Source: Ruminococcus sp.
GTDB taxonomy: Bacteria; Bacillota; Clostridia; Oscillospirales; Ruminococcaceae
Direction of reading: 5' to 3'
NCBI GenBank assembly: GCA_017484095.1
Contig: JAFUTU010000040.1
Location: forward strand, 1-64,000
Length of the DNA: 64,000 bases
Below the pieces are notes generated by a model that ran no database searches, was not told the DNA's origin, and saw only the letters and a program-made list of their open reading frames with translations. This document shows, piece after piece, positions 37,731 to 57,955 of this stretch. The translations under genes were made by a program, and so were the position numbers. The stretch's first letter is position 1. Each line of letters opens with the position of its first letter.

Positions 37731-37783
37731 AAAAAAAGACAATGGGCGCACTTCGAGCGGGAACATCGTCAGGCGCCATTGCC
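37731..37783 (-). terminator. Leader terminator of gdhA1
   Basis: Minus strand: GGCAATGGCGC pairs with GCGCCCATTGTC (one bulge) around a long loop, then seven T. It begins about 5 nt after the predicted transcription start (near 37788) and ends ahead of the ribosome-binding site, so it would stop transcription before gdhA unless overridden. Confidence 0.7.
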
Positions 37784-37794
37784 TTTACATATTT

Positions 37795-37823
37795 AGTTTA
37801 CTACATTGCATTACCAAAGTCAA
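37795..37823 (-). promoter_or_regulatory. Promoter of gdhA1
   Basis: Minus strand: -35 TTGACT (37823-37818), 17 bp, -10 TAAACT (37800-37795). Confidence 0.6.
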
Positions 37824-51262: not shown

Positions 51263-52690
51263 TTATCCCTCCTGAGTGTCTGCAAGCTTCATCTCGAACT
51301 TATCCTTCGGTGCAGCATTCGGTATCGCTGTGGGATACTGTCCCGAGAAGCAGGCGCTGCAATAGTTTTCATGTCCGACAAGCTCGCTGAGCCTGTCAAG
51401 CGGAAGGTACCCGAGACTGTCAACATTCATCTTTTCCGCTATCTGTTCGGGCGTTAGGTGATTTGCGATGAGCCCCTCCTCTGAGTCGATATCAGTTCCA
51501 TAATAGCACGGATGCAAAAATGCAGGCGCACATACACGGAAGTGTATCTCCTTCGCTCCTGCATTGCGGAGCAGTGACACTATCCTGGCACCCGTTGTTC
51601 CCCTTACGATCGAGTCATCGACCAGCACTACCCTGTTGCCCCTGACAACAGGCTCTATCGCCGAGAGCTTTATTCTGACCTTGTCCGTCCTCACAGACTG
51701 TGCAGGCGCTATGAAGGTCCTTGCTATGTACTTGTTCTTGATAAGTCCTATCTCATATGTGAGACCTGAAGCCTGTGCATAGCCCAGTGCTGCATCTAAG
51801 CCTGAATCGGGAACGCCTATCACGATATCCGCATCAGCAGGGCAGCTTTCGGCAAGTATGCGCCCTGCTCTCACCCTCGCTTCGTGAACGCTTACCCCGT
51901 CGATCACAGAATCAGGACGGGCAAAATATATATACTCAAATATACAGGTACGGCGCGGCTTTGTTTCACAGTGCTGCCTGAGAGATCTTACGCCCTCTTT
52001 TGAAAACAGCATTATCTCTCCTGGCTCGATGTCACGCTCAAACTCTGCACCGACAGCAGTGAGCGCACAGCTCTCCGAAGCTACCACATAGCCTCCGTCG
52101 GGAAGCTTTCCGAAGCAAAGAGGTCTCATACCGAGCGGATCACGGGCAGCGATAAGCTTTGCCGGCGACATTACCACCAGCGAATAGGCACCCTCTATTA
52201 TACCCATAGTGTTCATCACGGCCTGTTCTATCGAGGGCGTTACAAGGCGCTGTTTTGTGATGATATAGGCTATGGTCTCGGTGTCGGAGGTGGTGTGGAA
52301 TATCGCCCCTGACATTTCCAGAGTGCGCCTGAGCTCGGCCGCATTGGTAAGGTTACCGTTATGCGCAAGTGCCATTCTGCCTTTCATATGATTTACAACT
52401 ATCGGCTGACAGTTTCTTCTCTCGCTGCCTCCTGTCGTTGAATAGCGCACATGACCCACCGCCATATTGCCGGACGGCATTGAAGACAGCGTCTGAGGGT
52501 CAAACACATCACCGACAAGACCCAAGTCTTTATGTGCAGAGATGACACCGTCCTCACAGACAGCTATACCACAGCTTTCCTGTCCTCTGTGCTGCAGAGC
52601 ATAAAGCCCATAGTATACGCTCTCTGCAAGCGCCTCTTTTTTCTCCGACCAGATACCTAAAACTCCGCACTCCTCATGCAGACTGCTCAT
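51263..52690 (-). CDS. purF: Amidophosphoribosyltransferase
   Basis: A 475-residue enzyme for the first committed step of purine synthesis, transferring glutamine nitrogen to PRPP. The N-terminal glutaminase begins MSSLHEECGVLGIW, with a short propeptide before the catalytic cysteine, and has VGHVRYSTTGGSERRNCQP. The PRPP motif is RVVLVDDSIVRGTTG. Cysteines near the C terminus may bind a [4Fe-4S] cluster as in B. subtilis PurF. The ATG at 52690 has AAGAGGGAT upstream. The leader carries a terminator; no purine riboswitch was found. Confidence 0.97.
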   Translation of the reverse strand: MSSLHEECGVLGIWSEKKEALAESVYYGLYALQHRGQESCGIAVCEDGVISAHKDLGLVGDVFDPQTLSSMPSGNMAVGHVRYSTTGGSERRNCQPIVVNHMKGRMALAHNGNLTNAAELRRTLEMSGAIFHTTSDTETIAYIITKQRLVTPSIEQAVMNTMGIIEGAYSLVVMSPAKLIAARDPLGMRPLCFGKLPDGGYVVASESCALTAVGAEFERDIEPGEIMLFSKEGVRSLRQHCETKPRRTCIFEYIYFARPDSVIDGVSVHEARVRAGRILAESCPADADIVIGVPDSGLDAALGYAQASGLTYEIGLIKNKYIARTFIAPAQSVRTDKVRIKLSAIEPVVRGNRVVLVDDSIVRGTTGARIVSLLRNAGAKEIHFRVCAPAFLHPCYYGTDIDSEEGLIANHLTPEQIAEKMNVDSLGYLPLDRLSELVGHENYCSACFSGQYPTAIPNAAPKDKFEMKLADTQEG

Positions 52691-52710: not shown

Positions 52711-52747
52711 AAAAAGGCAATGATGCCCCATTCAGGACATCATTGCC
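52711..52747 (-). terminator. Leader terminator of purF
   Basis: Minus strand: perfect stem GGCAATGATG / CATCATTGCC, 12-nt loop, then five T. It begins about 4 nt after the predicted start of transcription (near 52750) and lies ahead of the ribosome-binding site. Confidence 0.75.
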
Positions 52748-52756
52748 GCTAAGACC

Positions 52757-52785
52757 ATTATACAACTATTGCGGCAGATTGTCAA
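52757..52785 (-). promoter_or_regulatory. Promoter of purF
   Basis: Minus strand: -35 TTGACA (52785-52780), 17 bp, extended -10 TGTATAAT (hexamer 52762-52757). It is divergent from the glnA promoter, with 12 bp between the two -35 boxes. Confidence 0.75.
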
Positions 52786-52797
52786 CATTTTCCGTAC

Positions 52798-52826
52798 TTG
52801 ACAAATGAACATATTAGTTGTATAAT
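52798..52826 (+). promoter_or_regulatory. Promoter of glnA
   Basis: -35 TTGACA (52798-52803), 17 bp, -10 TATAAT (52821-52826). TAGTTGTATAAT at the -10 is the exact inverted copy of the purF -10 region (52757-52768), so the two promoters are symmetric. Confidence 0.75.
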
Positions 52827-52846
52827 CAAAATATAGTAATGAGCAA

Positions 52847-52887
52847 GGGCGTTCATTCAGCTTAAGGCTGAATGCGCTCTTTTTTTG
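52847..52887 (+). terminator. Leader terminator of glnA
   Basis: GGGCG..CATTCAGC pairs with GCTGAATG..CGCTC (loop TTAAG, 2-nt bulge), then seven T. It lies between the predicted start (near 52833) and the glnA ribosome-binding site. Confidence 0.8.
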
Positions 52888-54121: not shown

Positions 54122-54709
54122 ATGGAGCTAAAACAGCGACACTACAGCGTTCTGATAGTGTCTGCACAGCCAAGATTCAACGAGTCCCTCTCTGCCCTGA
54201 TAGCTGAGCGGCGGCGCTACGATCAGGAGCTTGAGACAAGCGTCAGCGGAGCAAAAAGGCGGCTTCTTGAACGCGAATTCGACTTTATCATAATCAACGC
54301 TCCCCTGCCCGACAACGACGGCGTAAAGCTTGCTACCGACCGTTCATCAGACAGCGGCTGCGCGGTGCTTCTTCTTGTAGGGAGCGACTACTATGCGCGT
54401 ATCTTCGACAAGGTCTGTCCATATGGGGTATATACTCTCGCAAAGCCGTCTCCGCGCCAGCTCGTTACACAGGCTTTCGACTGGCTTGAAAGCACCAGAG
54501 AAAGGCTTCTTCGGGTGGAGAAAAAGTCTGCTACCTTAGAGGACAAGATGCAGGAGATAAGGCTCGTCAATCGGGCAAAGTGGCTCATCATCGAGAAAAA
54601 CAGCAAGACCGAAGAGGAAGCACACCACATGATCGAGAAGCTGGCAATGGACAAATGCGTGCCAAAGCGCACGATCGCCGAACAGATAATCAGAAACGGC
54701 GGACTTTGA
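54122..54709 (+). CDS. ANTAR-domain antiterminator with degenerate receiver
   Basis: A 195-residue RNA-binding regulator. The N-terminal 120 residues fold like a receiver but the acidic pocket and phosphoacceptor are altered (VLIVSAQPR; IIINAPLPDNDG with Asn in place of Asp), while the lysine survives (LAKPSP). A short coiled coil leads to the ANTAR domain (about 135-195): NRAKWLIIEKNSKTEEEAHH and PKRTIAEQII. ANTAR proteins such as AmiR, NasR and EutV prevent termination at leader hairpins. It is co-transcribed with glnA. Likely targets are the leader terminators in this region. Confidence 0.9.
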   Translation: MELKQRHYSVLIVSAQPRFNESLSALIAERRRYDQELETSVSGAKRRLLEREFDFIIINAPLPDNDGVKLATDRSSDSGCAVLLLVGSDYYARIFDKVCPYGVYTLAKPSPRQLVTQAFDWLESTRERLLRVEKKSATLEDKMQEIRLVNRAKWLIIEKNSKTEEEAHHMIEKLAMDKCVPKRTIAEQIIRNGGL

Positions 54710-54808: not shown

Positions 54809-56540
54809 ATTCCTCTGAATCCTGAAGTGCATCAATGCCTTCTTCACCTGTTCTAACCTTTATTACGTTTTCAACATCATAAATAAAGATCTTTCCGTCT
54901 CCGTAATGGCCTGTATAAAGAGCCTTCTTTGCTGTTTCAACTACGCTTCTGACAGGTATCTTGCTGACTACGATATCGACCTGTACCTTTGGCATCAGGT
55001 TGATCTCAACAGGTACACCACGGTAATATTCGGGCTTGCCCTTCTGGTTTCCGAAGCCCATAACGTGCGATACAGTCATACCTGTTATGCCGAGCTTTGT
55101 CATTGAGTTTTTCAGCCTGTCAAGCTTAGCCTCCTTGCAGACGATCTCGACCTTAGTGAGCTTAGGAGCGCCGTCAGATACAAGGCTGTCAAGCTTCTTG
55201 ACGGGAACTGCCTCTGCCTCGGGGATCTCTCCGTTGACAACTGTAACGTCACTGTATTCTTCATAAGTGGTGTACTTATGTACAGCAGGCATAAAGTCGG
55301 GATATGCGCTGGGAAGACCGTGCTCGGAGATATCAAGGCCGAGAATCTCGTCCTCTGCTGAGGTACGCAAACCGTTAGTATGCTTAATTATAAAGAACGT
55401 TATTATCATCATAACAGCTGCATAAGCTGCTACAGTGCCGAAGCCTGCGAGCTGCAGACCGAGCTGCTTGAAGCTGCCTGTATAGAAAAGACCCTTAAGA
55501 CCTGCAGGAGCATCGGGATTTGCGAGCAGACCAACTGCTATAGTTCCCCAGATACCGTTTGCCATATGTACGCCTACCGCACCGACAGGATCGTCGATAT
55601 GGAGCTTGAGGTCGATGAATTCAACTACCCATACTACCAACAGACCGGATACGAGACCTACTACAGCAGCACCGATACCGTCAAAAGCATCTGTTCCTGC
55701 GGTAACGCCTACCAGTCCTGCCAGTGATGCGTTAAGACACATTGAAACATCAGGCTTGCCGTTTCTTACCCATGTATAGATCATTGTGGTAACTGTTGCA
55801 ACCGACGGTGCGATAGTAGTTGTAAGGAAGATAGATGCAAGCTCTGACGGGCTCGTAGCAGCGGCACCGTTGAAGCCGTACCACCCGAGCCACAGAATGA
55901 ACACACCGAGAGCACCCAGAGTGATCGAATGACCGGGGATAGCGTTAACCTTGATGACCTTGCCGTCCTTGTCACGCTCATACTTACCAAGACGCGGACC
56001 AACAAAGATAGCACCTATCAGCGCAGCGACACCACCAACCATGTGGATCGCGCAGGAGCCTGCATAGTCATGGAAGCCGATCTGTGAAAGCCATCCGCCG
56101 CCCCAGATCCAGTGCGCCTCTATCGGATAAACGATAAGGGAGATCACGCCTGAGTAAATACAGTAGCTCGAAAACTTGGTTCTGCCTGCCATAGAGCCGG
56201 ACACGATAGTAGCTGTAGTCGCACAGAACACAAGATTGAACACAAATGTAGATGCGGCTGTAAAGCTTCCGTCCGAAGGGCTTGCTATGAACTGTTTAAA
56301 ATGAGTGAACATATCCATGTTCGGTATACCTATCAGACCGAAGAGAGTGTCCTCTCCCATCATAAGAGTATATCCCAGCAGTGAGAACACCACTGTTCCG
56401 ATACAAAAGTCCATAAGGTTTTTCATGATGATGTTTCCGGCATTCTTTGCACGGGTGAAGCCTGTCTCCACCATCGCAAAGCCTGCCTGCATCCAGAAAA
56501 CAAGCGCAGCTCCTATCAGGAACCAAAATTCAACTGTCAT
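54807..56540 (-). CDS. amtB: Ammonium transporter fused to a PII (GlnB/GlnK) signalling domain
   Basis: A 577-residue fusion. Residues 1 to about 400 are an Amt channel with 11 helices (FWMQAGFAMVETGFTRAKN, HWIWGGGWLSQIGFHDYAGS, GAVGVHMANGIWG). A linker of about 60 residues leads to a complete PII domain (about 460-570): KVEIVCKEAKLDRLKNSM, the T-loop GNQKGKPEYYRGVPVEIN, then GDGKIFIYDVENVIKVRTGE. PII proteins sense 2-oxoglutarate, ATP and ADP and plug Amt channels; here the plug is attached. Two leader terminators lie upstream of its start. Confidence 0.95.
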   Translation of the reverse strand: MTVEFWFLIGAALVFWMQAGFAMVETGFTRAKNAGNIIMKNLMDFCIGTVVFSLLGYTLMMGEDTLFGLIGIPNMDMFTHFKQFIASPSDGSFTAASTFVFNLVFCATTATIVSGSMAGRTKFSSYCIYSGVISLIVYPIEAHWIWGGGWLSQIGFHDYAGSCAIHMVGGVAALIGAIFVGPRLGKYERDKDGKVIKVNAIPGHSITLGALGVFILWLGWYGFNGAAATSPSELASIFLTTTIAPSVATVTTMIYTWVRNGKPDVSMCLNASLAGLVGVTAGTDAFDGIGAAVVGLVSGLLVVWVVEFIDLKLHIDDPVGAVGVHMANGIWGTIAVGLLANPDAPAGLKGLFYTGSFKQLGLQLAGFGTVAAYAAVMMIITFFIIKHTNGLRTSAEDEILGLDISEHGLPSAYPDFMPAVHKYTTYEEYSDVTVVNGEIPEAEAVPVKKLDSLVSDGAPKLTKVEIVCKEAKLDRLKNSMTKLGITGMTVSHVMGFGNQKGKPEYYRGVPVEINLMPKVQVDIVVSKIPVRSVVETAKKALYTGHYGDGKIFIYDVENVIKVRTGEEGIDALQDSEE

Positions 56541-56561: not shown

Positions 56562-56593
56562 AAAAAAGCCCGCGGGGTATATCCCGGGGGCTT
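56562..56593 (-). terminator. amtB leader terminator 2
   Basis: Minus strand: AAGCCCCCGGG pairs (one mismatch) with CCCGCGGGCTT around ATATAC, then a T-run. It lies directly before the amtB ribosome-binding site. Confidence 0.8.
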
Positions 56594-56614
56594 CATTGCT
56601 CAAAAAGTATTAAA

Positions 56615-56652
56615 ATAAAAAACAGGCAGGAGCGTTGGCCTCCTTGCCTGTT
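56615..56652 (-). terminator. amtB leader terminator 1
   Basis: Minus strand: ACAGGCAAGGAG pairs (one bulged A) with CTCCTGCCTGT, then a T-rich tail. It starts at the predicted first transcribed base (near 56652). Confidence 0.8.
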
Positions 56653-56924: not shown

Positions 56925-56953
56925 TTGACTTTCGTCTGCTAATGTGCTAGATT
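56925..56953 (+). promoter_or_regulatory. Promoter of the AraC-type regulator gene
   Basis: -35 TTGACT (56925-56930), 17 bp, extended -10 TGCTAGATT (hexamer 56948-56953). Confidence 0.65.
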
Positions 56954-56967
56954 TTAATCAGGCGATG

Positions 56968-57009
56968 GGGCTGTTCTACTAAAGGGTGGAACAGCTCTAT
57001 TTTTATTTT
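56968..57009 (+). terminator. Leader terminator of the AraC-type regulator gene
   Basis: GGGCTGTTCTAC pairs with GTGGAACAGCTC around the six-base loop TAAAGG, then TATTTTTATTTT. It begins about 8 nt after the predicted start and ends just before the ribosome-binding site. Confidence 0.8.
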
Positions 57010-57022
57010 CGGAGGTGAGAGC

Positions 57023-57781
57023 GTGCAATACAGAGTGATGGTAGTTGATAATTCCAACTATGATCTGCGGCATTACAGCAGTATGCCCGTATTTACGGAA
57101 TGCGGTTTCGAGATGTGCGCTCATACTTCGGAACCCGCGAAGGCAGTCAGCGCCGCTGCCGATGATGAATGTGATATGCTTCTGTGTATCAACCGCCCGA
57201 CAGCTGTAATTGCTGCCGACCTTTTAAAACGTTCTGTAAAGGCAGGGCTCAATATTCCGACTATCGTTATCAGCCGTGTGAATGCGGCGAACGATATGCG
57301 CGAATGCTTTCTGCTCGGGGCTGTGGATTATCTTATCGAGCCGGTAATGGACGAGGATATCCGCTCGGCGCTCAACAGAGCACAGAAGGTCATCGGCAAA
57401 AGGATAATCAGCGCCGAGTATGATAAAGCTATGGAAAAGGCACTTTCTGCCATACCAGTTCAGCAGGCAGGTCAGTCTTTTCTCGACAAGCTTCGGGAGC
57501 TGCTTATCAAAACTCAGGGCACGGCGATCACCGTTGAAGTTGCGGCAGACCATTTCGGATTCAATCCCGATTACTTCGGAAGGTATTTCAAGCAGCGCAC
57601 AGGCGTCTCGTTCAGCGAATTCTATAAAAAGCTCGCAATGGACTACGGCGGAATGATACTCGCTTCGGGACATTATAAGGTCCATGAGGTAAGTGATCTG
57701 CTGGGCTTCGCTTCGCCTGATTATTTTACAAGGGTATTCAAGAAGGTGACGGGAGAACTTCCCTCAAGCTTCAAGAAATGA
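57023..57781 (+). CDS. AraC-type regulator with degenerate receiver domain
   Basis: A 252-residue transcription factor. The N-terminal receiver-like domain keeps one pocket aspartate (VMVVDNSNYD), but the phosphoacceptor position is Cys (MLLCINRP) and the conserved lysine is Glu (YLIEPVMD), so it is unlikely to be phosphorylated. The C-terminal AraC domain (about 155-252) has both helix-turn-helix motifs: VAADHFGFNPDYFGRYFKQ and VSDLLGFASPDYFTRVFKK. The start is GTG at 57023, with GGAGGTG upstream. No histidine kinase is nearby. The 3' end overlaps the convergent ANTAR gene by 18 bp. Confidence 0.88.
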   Translation: MQYRVMVVDNSNYDLRHYSSMPVFTECGFEMCAHTSEPAKAVSAAADDECDMLLCINRPTAVIAADLLKRSVKAGLNIPTIVISRVNAANDMRECFLLGAVDYLIEPVMDEDIRSALNRAQKVIGKRIISAEYDKAMEKALSAIPVQQAGQSFLDKLRELLIKTQGTAITVEVAADHFGFNPDYFGRYFKQRTGVSFSEFYKKLAMDYGGMILASGHYKVHEVSDLLGFASPDYFTRVFKKVTGELPSSFKK

Positions 57782-57955
57782 CTGCCCTCGAATACGCCGA
57801 ATGACCTGTCTTGCGGCAGCTGATTTCGGTATGCACTTGTCCATAGACAGCTTCTGAAGATATTTATGAGCCTGCTCTTCTGTCATATCACAATGACGGA
57901 TAAGGAGCGCCTTGGCCTCTTCTATCAGCTCGCTGTCAGTAATCTTTACGGACAT
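57764..57955 (-). CDS. Stand-alone ANTAR domain protein
   Basis: A 63-residue protein consisting of an ANTAR domain only: EEAKALLIRHCDMTEEQAHK, then QKLSMDKCIPKSAAARQVI. It resembles the ANTAR part of the 54122-54709 regulator (both have LxMDKCxPK). Without a receiver it would bind RNA constitutively, or act by dimerising with the larger ANTAR protein. It has its own promoter (57981-58009). A palindrome (57962-57978) overlaps the transcription start and the ribosome-binding site AGGGAG. Confidence 0.85.
   Translation of the reverse strand: MSVKITDSELIEEAKALLIRHCDMTEEQAHKYLQKLSMDKCIPKSAAARQVIRRIRGQSFLEA

Follow-up and report, generated by a model that had tools for sequence, protein, structure and literature searches.

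A candidate tandem of single-hexaloop, ANTAR-controlled attenuators in the amtB leader of a Ruminococcus species

Introduction

The closest described relatives of the leader reported here are the dual-hexaloop RNAs of E. faecalis eutP (with EutV), P. aeruginosa amiE (AmiR) and K. oxytoca nasF (NasR), which, as here, have six-base loops with A at position 1 and G at position 4 (A1/G4) closed by a C-G pair, overlap an intrinsic terminator, belong to nitrogen genes and are accompanied by a genome-encoded ANTAR protein. The A1 and G4 bases are given as the mark of an ANTAR target in passages of PMC3369931, where the published motif consists of two hexaloops, P1 and P2, joined by a short linker, of 5-12 nt in eut; an actinobacterial survey of the dual-hexaloop motif has linkers of 2-25 nt. 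The same passages state that cutting the eut linker to 3 nt or extending it to 14 nt harms induction, that deletion of P1 impairs induction in E. faecalis and that a lone stem-loop is bound less well (PMC3369931). The P1-deletion and binding results argue against single-hexaloop function by that protein.

ANTAR regulons of nitrogen genes, ammonium transporters and glutamine synthesis genes among them, are already described by Ramesh et al. 2012 (PMC3369931); these concern the same kinds of target gene as here, but were found with a dual-hairpin covariance model that a single hexaloop does not satisfy. A glutamine synthetase-linked clostridial antiterminator has likewise been proposed for nitR/glnA of C. 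acetobutylicum (Fierro-Monti 1992, as cited in PMC4676874), which differs from the present case by an antisense RNA, and the citing passage describes no hexaloops.

We analysed a window of 64,000 nt (the whole stretch of DNA under study, from a Ruminococcus sp. contig), for which the original prediction placed two complete minus-strand terminators between the promoter and the start of amtB, the first beginning at about +1, and supposed that ammonium transport is shut off very tightly and that ANTAR antitermination is needed at both. Whereas the eut, ami and nas RNAs have two hexaloops, the leaders described below have one per terminator, usually at +5 to +14 and without a recruitment hairpin, and amtB differs from eut-type leaders in having two such single-hexaloop modules in series, with 48 nt between the A1 positions of hexaloops 1 and 2.

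Results

Both minus-strand terminators were found in the predicted place (Table 1), and each folds better than shuffled sequence. Hairpin 1 (56652-56621, minus strand, with its T-rich tract running to 56612) folded at -18.0 kcal/mol (z -4.5; 0 of 200 shuffles equal), hairpin 2 (56594-56565, minus strand, T tract ending at 56562) at -24.5 kcal/mol when the segment 56541-56608 was folded (z -3.2; 1 of 200 shuffles equal), and the whole amtB leader gave a z of -5.0 against shuffles. Both fit the form of an intrinsic terminator, in which a U tract comes after a stable hairpin rich in GC, and base 56652, the seventh past the -10 box and hence the predicted +1, bears out the claim that the first begins at about the predicted transcript start. 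A simple terminator scan listed hairpin 1 merely as a 5-pair stem and did not list hairpin 2, which was probably missed owing to its C-C mismatch. A Shine-Dalgarno-like GGAUGGG lies between terminator 2 and the amtB ATG at 56540. The two-terminator layout is kept in the closest relatives, L218 and L219 (AmtB 96 and 93% identical), and also in further members of the genus. The P-II domain is C-terminal in AmtB, so one message yields both transporter and nitrogen sensor. An Rfam Spot 42 match over the leader (E 1.7) was rejected as a chance match at loose E-values, and the Rfam search at gathering scores matched a tRNA alone.

Good terminators in this position might be ordinary insulators that block upstream transcription into amtB, with the hexaloop there by chance. 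As they lie downstream of the sole strong amtB promoter, however, they would silence amtB too, and the loop-class enrichment and terminator overlap given below far exceed those of other classes; we regard this explanation as highly improbable.

Table 1. Features of the window that bear on the amtB leader and on related leaders. CM, covariance model.
Feature	Coordinates	Strand	Basis and details
amtB promoter TTGACA-17-TATAAT	56687-56659	-	12/12 consensus matches
Terminator 1	56652-56612	-	bulged stem of 12 pairs and T-rich tract; 5' arm common to hexaloop 1
Hexaloop 1 GGC[AAGGAG]GCC	56637-56648	-	sequence, loop script, CM 35.9 bits (in training set)
Hexaloop 2 GAGC[AAUGAA]GCCC	56588-56601	-	two closing pairs, then A.C mismatch; spans terminator 2 foot
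Terminator 2	56594-56562	-	5' arm common to 3' strand of hexaloop 2
amtB with fused P-II domain, 577 aa	54807-56540	-	Pfam PF00909 + PF00543
glnA promoter	52798-52826	+	12/12 consensus matches
glnA leader module AAUGAGC[AAGGGC]GUUCAUU, overlapping terminator	52838-52886	+	folding; CM 51.3 bits (training set)
glnA, glutamine synthetase, 402 aa	52901-54109	+	Pfam PF00120, PF03951
ANTAR protein, 195 aa, receiver-like N-terminus	54122-54709	+	PF03861 54.8 bits (cut-off 27.3)
purF leader	52711-52785	-	promoter 52785-52757; GGC[AAUGAU]GUC inside terminator 52747-52716
purF-type amidophosphoribosyltransferase	51263-52690	-	Pfam GATase_7 + Pribosyltran; start re-set to ATG at 52690
gdhA second-copy leader	37731-37823	-	TTGACT-17-TAAACT, AGGC[AAUGGC]GCCU, terminator
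Glutamate dehydrogenase second copy, 447 aa	36361-37704	-	ORF; by-eye likeness to gdhA1
AraC-type regulator leader	56925-57006	+	possible divergent module GGC[GAUGGG]GCU, terminator 56964-57001
63-aa stand-alone ANTAR protein	57764-57955	-	ORF, PF03861

Each of the two terminators shares strands with a six-base loop that has A1, G4 and a C-G closing pair, so that hexaloop and terminator are mutually exclusive forms. Stems of the dual-hexaloop motif have at least 3 pairs; hexaloop 1 has three, hexaloop 2 two. The A1 of hexaloop 1 lies at about +8, and the 5' arm of terminator 1 contains this hexaloop. The terminator was much more stable than the hexaloop in each of the six modules that were folded (6/6) (-17.1 against -4.2 kcal/mol in module 1, -18.9 against -0.5 in module 2 and -20.0 against -5.7 at glnA), which would make a stop the default state.

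At -0.5 kcal/mol and with two closing pairs, hexaloop 2 is such that gate 2 in this genome may be weakly or not at all ANTAR-responsive. Gate 2 might thus have decayed in this species, leaving terminator 1 alone under ANTAR control and terminator 2 as a leaky constitutive damper or opened by other means; besides the A.C mismatch beyond the two pairs, nascent folding, which yields no hexaloop, speaks for this. Yet the loop and its closing pair are retained in L218 (AAUGAA) and L219 (AAUGAU), the second pair changing from G-C to G-U in L219, and the same loop occurs in the P2 hairpin GAGC[AATGAA]GCTT of a classical eut dual (L114), and we consider decay of gate 2 rather doubtful. Two-pair second hexaloops were seen in L064, L070, L217 (the window), L218 and L219.

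The module, which consists of a promoter, a single hexaloop roughly at +5 to +14 and an overlapping terminator, was also found in this genome before glnA-ANTAR, purF, a gdhA and glnN. When a covariance model of promoter plus hexaloop (CM R1) was run on the genome itself, glnA-ANTAR, glnN (GSIII), purF, amtB and the second gdhA copy (31.0 bits) were among the six best matches; glnA-ANTAR, purF (36.4 bits) and amtB are in the training set of the model, while glnN and the second gdhA copy are outside it. All five own-genome modules that could be parsed (5/5) lie at nitrogen genes. The remaining one of the six (C50, 31.1 bits) and ten of the next twelve matches lack a hexaloop after the promoter: among these 13 matches outside the module genes (31.1, 29.9, then at most 26.6 bits), the 11 that were inspected (L132, L134-L141, L143 and L144) have no C[A..G..]G loop there, the off-centre L142 and L145 being left out. 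The possible module before the AraC-type gene has G at loop position 1; in an L004 leader, found at a start related to AraC_RR, the loop is intact (AGC[AAAGGU]GCU).

The sample for wider counts comprised 80 loci of AmtB relatives plus the window, in which all 16 classes of loop position 1/4 were counted; the loci take in related species, whose kinship the counts ignore. Of 756 modules with a hexaloop and a terminator, 161 were A1/G4, where base composition would predict 49.5; the next class had 85. Within 350 nt upstream of amtB, A1/G4 modules were present in 33 of 79 loci (L031, whose contig lacks the gene start, being left out), against 2 for the next class. When a promoter with at least 11/12 matches was required 8-20 nt upstream and the terminator was optional, 73 of the 112 six-base-loop hairpins in the 80 relatives' loci and the window were A1/G4, the next class having 9. 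A relaxed scan of 80 amtB leaders (the 79 plus the window) gave at least one A1/G4 module in 46 and at least two in 10, whereas each other loop class appeared in at most 5 of the 80 and none had two. Of the 34 amtB leaders without an A1/G4 module, 22 were flagged by the script as having a GSIII gene immediately before them, and many of these GSIII-preceded loci have a module about 2.2-2.4 kb upstream, the position of the GSIII leader. The module is a recurrent one across Clostridia. G1/G4 was the second commonest loop class in several counts, and L239 and L242 have, upstream of amtB, ACAC[GAGGAA]GUGU hairpins with terminators that are G1 hexaloop variants.

From 87 A1/G4 cases with a promoter of 10/12 matches, 81 distinct promoter-linked AANG modules remained once other loops and duplicates were dropped. 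A C-G pair closes the loop in 79 of these 81, and the commonest loop, AAAGGC, occurs in 31; A1 lies 10-19 nt past the -10 box (mode 15), which corresponds to about +5 to +14 when the transcript position is taken as that distance minus 5. When 54 of the 81, chosen by hand, were aligned, pairing held in 94.4% of stem cells, with changes on both sides at the fourth pair in 23 sequences and at the fifth in 11; because stems of at least 3 pairs were a selection rule, the outer pairs alone count as independent evidence. A1A2G4 hexaloops overlap the 5' arm of a terminator in 58 of 67 cases (5 are separate from it and 4 are without a terminator), compared with 17 of 83 for other loops.

Tandem modules were counted in 37 promoter-linked amtB leaders drawn from L004-L083 and the genus loci. 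A second hexaloop-terminator module was present in 23 and absent from 14, and the same search with the other 15 loop classes gave at most one each; the tandem leaders are not independent of one another, since many come from related species. In 21 of the 23 the distance to the second module is 47-96 nt; it is 145 nt in L078 and 301 nt in L054. The layout is not special to amtB, as 24 of 49 promoter-linked GSIII leaders have it too. Several GSIII-amtB operons have a single intergenic hexaloop-terminator (e.g. L226, L236, L238 and L241), so a hexaloop can also sit far from the transcript start.

Two A1/G4 hexaloops in order in 23 of the 37 leaders could also be read as one split dual motif with a long linker, hexaloop 1 acting as P1 and hexaloop 2 as P2 in a single antitermination event, with the protein handed from the first to the second; a P1-to-P2 hand-over is the published model (PMC8934654). 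However, hexaloop 1 overlaps a terminator of its own, the spacing is mostly 47-96 nt compared with the eut linker of 5-12 nt, and 20 extra linker nucleotides abolished EutV antitermination in vitro (PMC8934654). A single module, moreover, is all that is present in the other 14 amtB leaders and in all promoter-linked glnA and purF leaders found (4/4). We judge a split motif improbable.

A partner at classical spacing was not enriched either, which led us to reject the classical dual hexaloop as the identity of these leaders. A1/G4 hexaloop pairs numbered 39 in the amtB loci, within the 19-54 of the other classes, and with closing-pair and T-tract rules there were 7, against up to 9 in other classes. 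Around the 81 modules an A1/G4 partner was found once upstream within the transcript and eight times within 25 nt downstream, mid-rank among the 16 classes. As a positive control, the same script recovered 5 A1/G4 pairs in 4 of 14 eut regions, with linkers of 3-10 nt and at most one pair in any other class; these 14 regions were longer ones, an earlier set with 1.5 kb flanks having given no convincing dual. In L052 (185-290, plus strand) a second hexaloop, AGUUC[AAUGAG]GAACU, lies in the terminator loop region and is possibly a true dual.

The 195-aa ANTAR protein encoded after glnA has a predicted model of pLDDT 92.6, whose best PDB match is the EutV-RNA structure 6ww6 (TM 0.76). Its receiver has Asn where EutV and Rv1626 have the phospho-acceptor Asp, as do most aligned relatives, so that phosphorylation is a less likely means of control than a ligand or a partner protein; AmiR likewise has a pseudo-receiver (PMC8934654). 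In the alignment (numbering mapped with an offset of 2) EutV Met172 is kept and Tyr164 is replaced by His; as AmiR also has His there, this residue was rejected as a mark of single-hexaloop ANTAR proteins. We consider the glnA-linked protein the likely antiterminator at these leaders; the gene order glnA-ANTAR pointing to glutamine synthetase as its controlling partner is speculation. Two further ANTAR genes are present in the genome, one of them the 63-aa stand-alone domain, which has its own 12/12 promoter (58009-57981), lies between the AraC-type gene and gdhA1, and is possibly an antagonist or second reader.

Modules and ANTAR genes co-occur in the order: of 117 genomes, 60 have both and 33 have neither, with 13 having ANTAR genes only and 11 modules only (Fisher p 1e-9, kinship ignored). 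At the threshold used, the exceptions are thus 13 of 73 ANTAR genomes without a module and 11 of 71 module genomes without an ANTAR match (G301, G304, G309, G330, G357, G359, G360, G363, G372, G385 and G390), for which missed genes, incomplete assemblies or chance are possible explanations. The same search yielded 29 new loci. Of these, 27 could be parsed as modules, and in 26 a terminator overlaps the hexaloop; the best match was GSIII in 25 (L214 only internally) and gdhA in 1, with no reference gene for 3.

Discussion

The amtB leader is probably a pair of ANTAR-controlled attenuators in series, with one hexaloop per gate. On sequence grounds the leader class to which it belongs is real, conserved and coherent, and ANTAR control is the best reading of that class; that an ANTAR protein binds and antiterminates, that both gates need it to do so, and what the signal is, are what we infer. 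The supposition of ANTAR antitermination is well supported by the C[AANGNN]G loop in both arms, by the nearby ANTAR protein with its EutV-like predicted fold and by the co-occurrence of leaders and ANTAR genes. The original prediction mentioned neither the single hexaloop of each module nor the sharing of the module by glnA, purF, gdhA and glnN, and the very tight shut-off that it proposed is a prediction. For its second part, that both gates require antitermination, conservation of the hexaloop in second modules is favourable, but the two closing pairs of hexaloop 2 make it less sure in this genome.

We envisage that the consensus amtB promoter probably fires steadily and that RNA polymerase would complete the first hexaloop by about nucleotide 16. 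If no active ANTAR protein is present, terminator 1 would absorb the strands of the hexaloop and transcription would stop after about 40 nt; polymerase that passed gate 1 would meet the second hexaloop and terminator about 48 nt further on. An active ANTAR dimer, most likely of the glnA-linked 195-aa protein, would grip each hexaloop, the terminators would be blocked and AmtB-PII made. The effects of two gates would multiply, so that the response to nitrogen need would be steep. Speculatively, binding to hexaloop 1 at the 5' end may be helped by polymerase leaving the promoter slowly, which would allow the protein more time. The signal is perhaps the state of glutamine synthetase or PII, given a receiver without the phospho-acceptor Asp.

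Tandem attenuators are familiar from tandem riboswitches and tandem T-boxes, which also place two gates before one gene; the gates here would be protein-controlled, with one hexaloop each. ANTAR control of nitrogen genes is already known, and the single-hexaloop, tandem layout is what is new; in the open-access PMC literature we found no single-hexaloop antiterminators in Clostridia beyond a proposal in PMC8934654. We lean slightly towards a general reading in which widespread clostridial nitrogen-gene attenuators use a single ANTAR hexaloop at the 5' end without a recruitment hairpin, two of them being stacked in the leaders of amtB and of roughly half the GSIII genes so that the response is multiplied.

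If this is true, P1 would serve as a kinetic aid, and closeness to the promoter could take its place. The 2022 EutV-RNA structure paper asks why two hexaloops are required although the protein grips a single one, and calls for work on single-hexaloop sites (PMC8934654). The present leaders resemble a naturally occurring collection of single-hexaloop antiterminators in which related species have the same gene behind either one gate or two, which makes the question of hexaloop number directly testable. Such leaders, which a dual-hairpin search would miss, would explain how ammonium uptake and assimilation are switched in many rumen and gut Clostridia.
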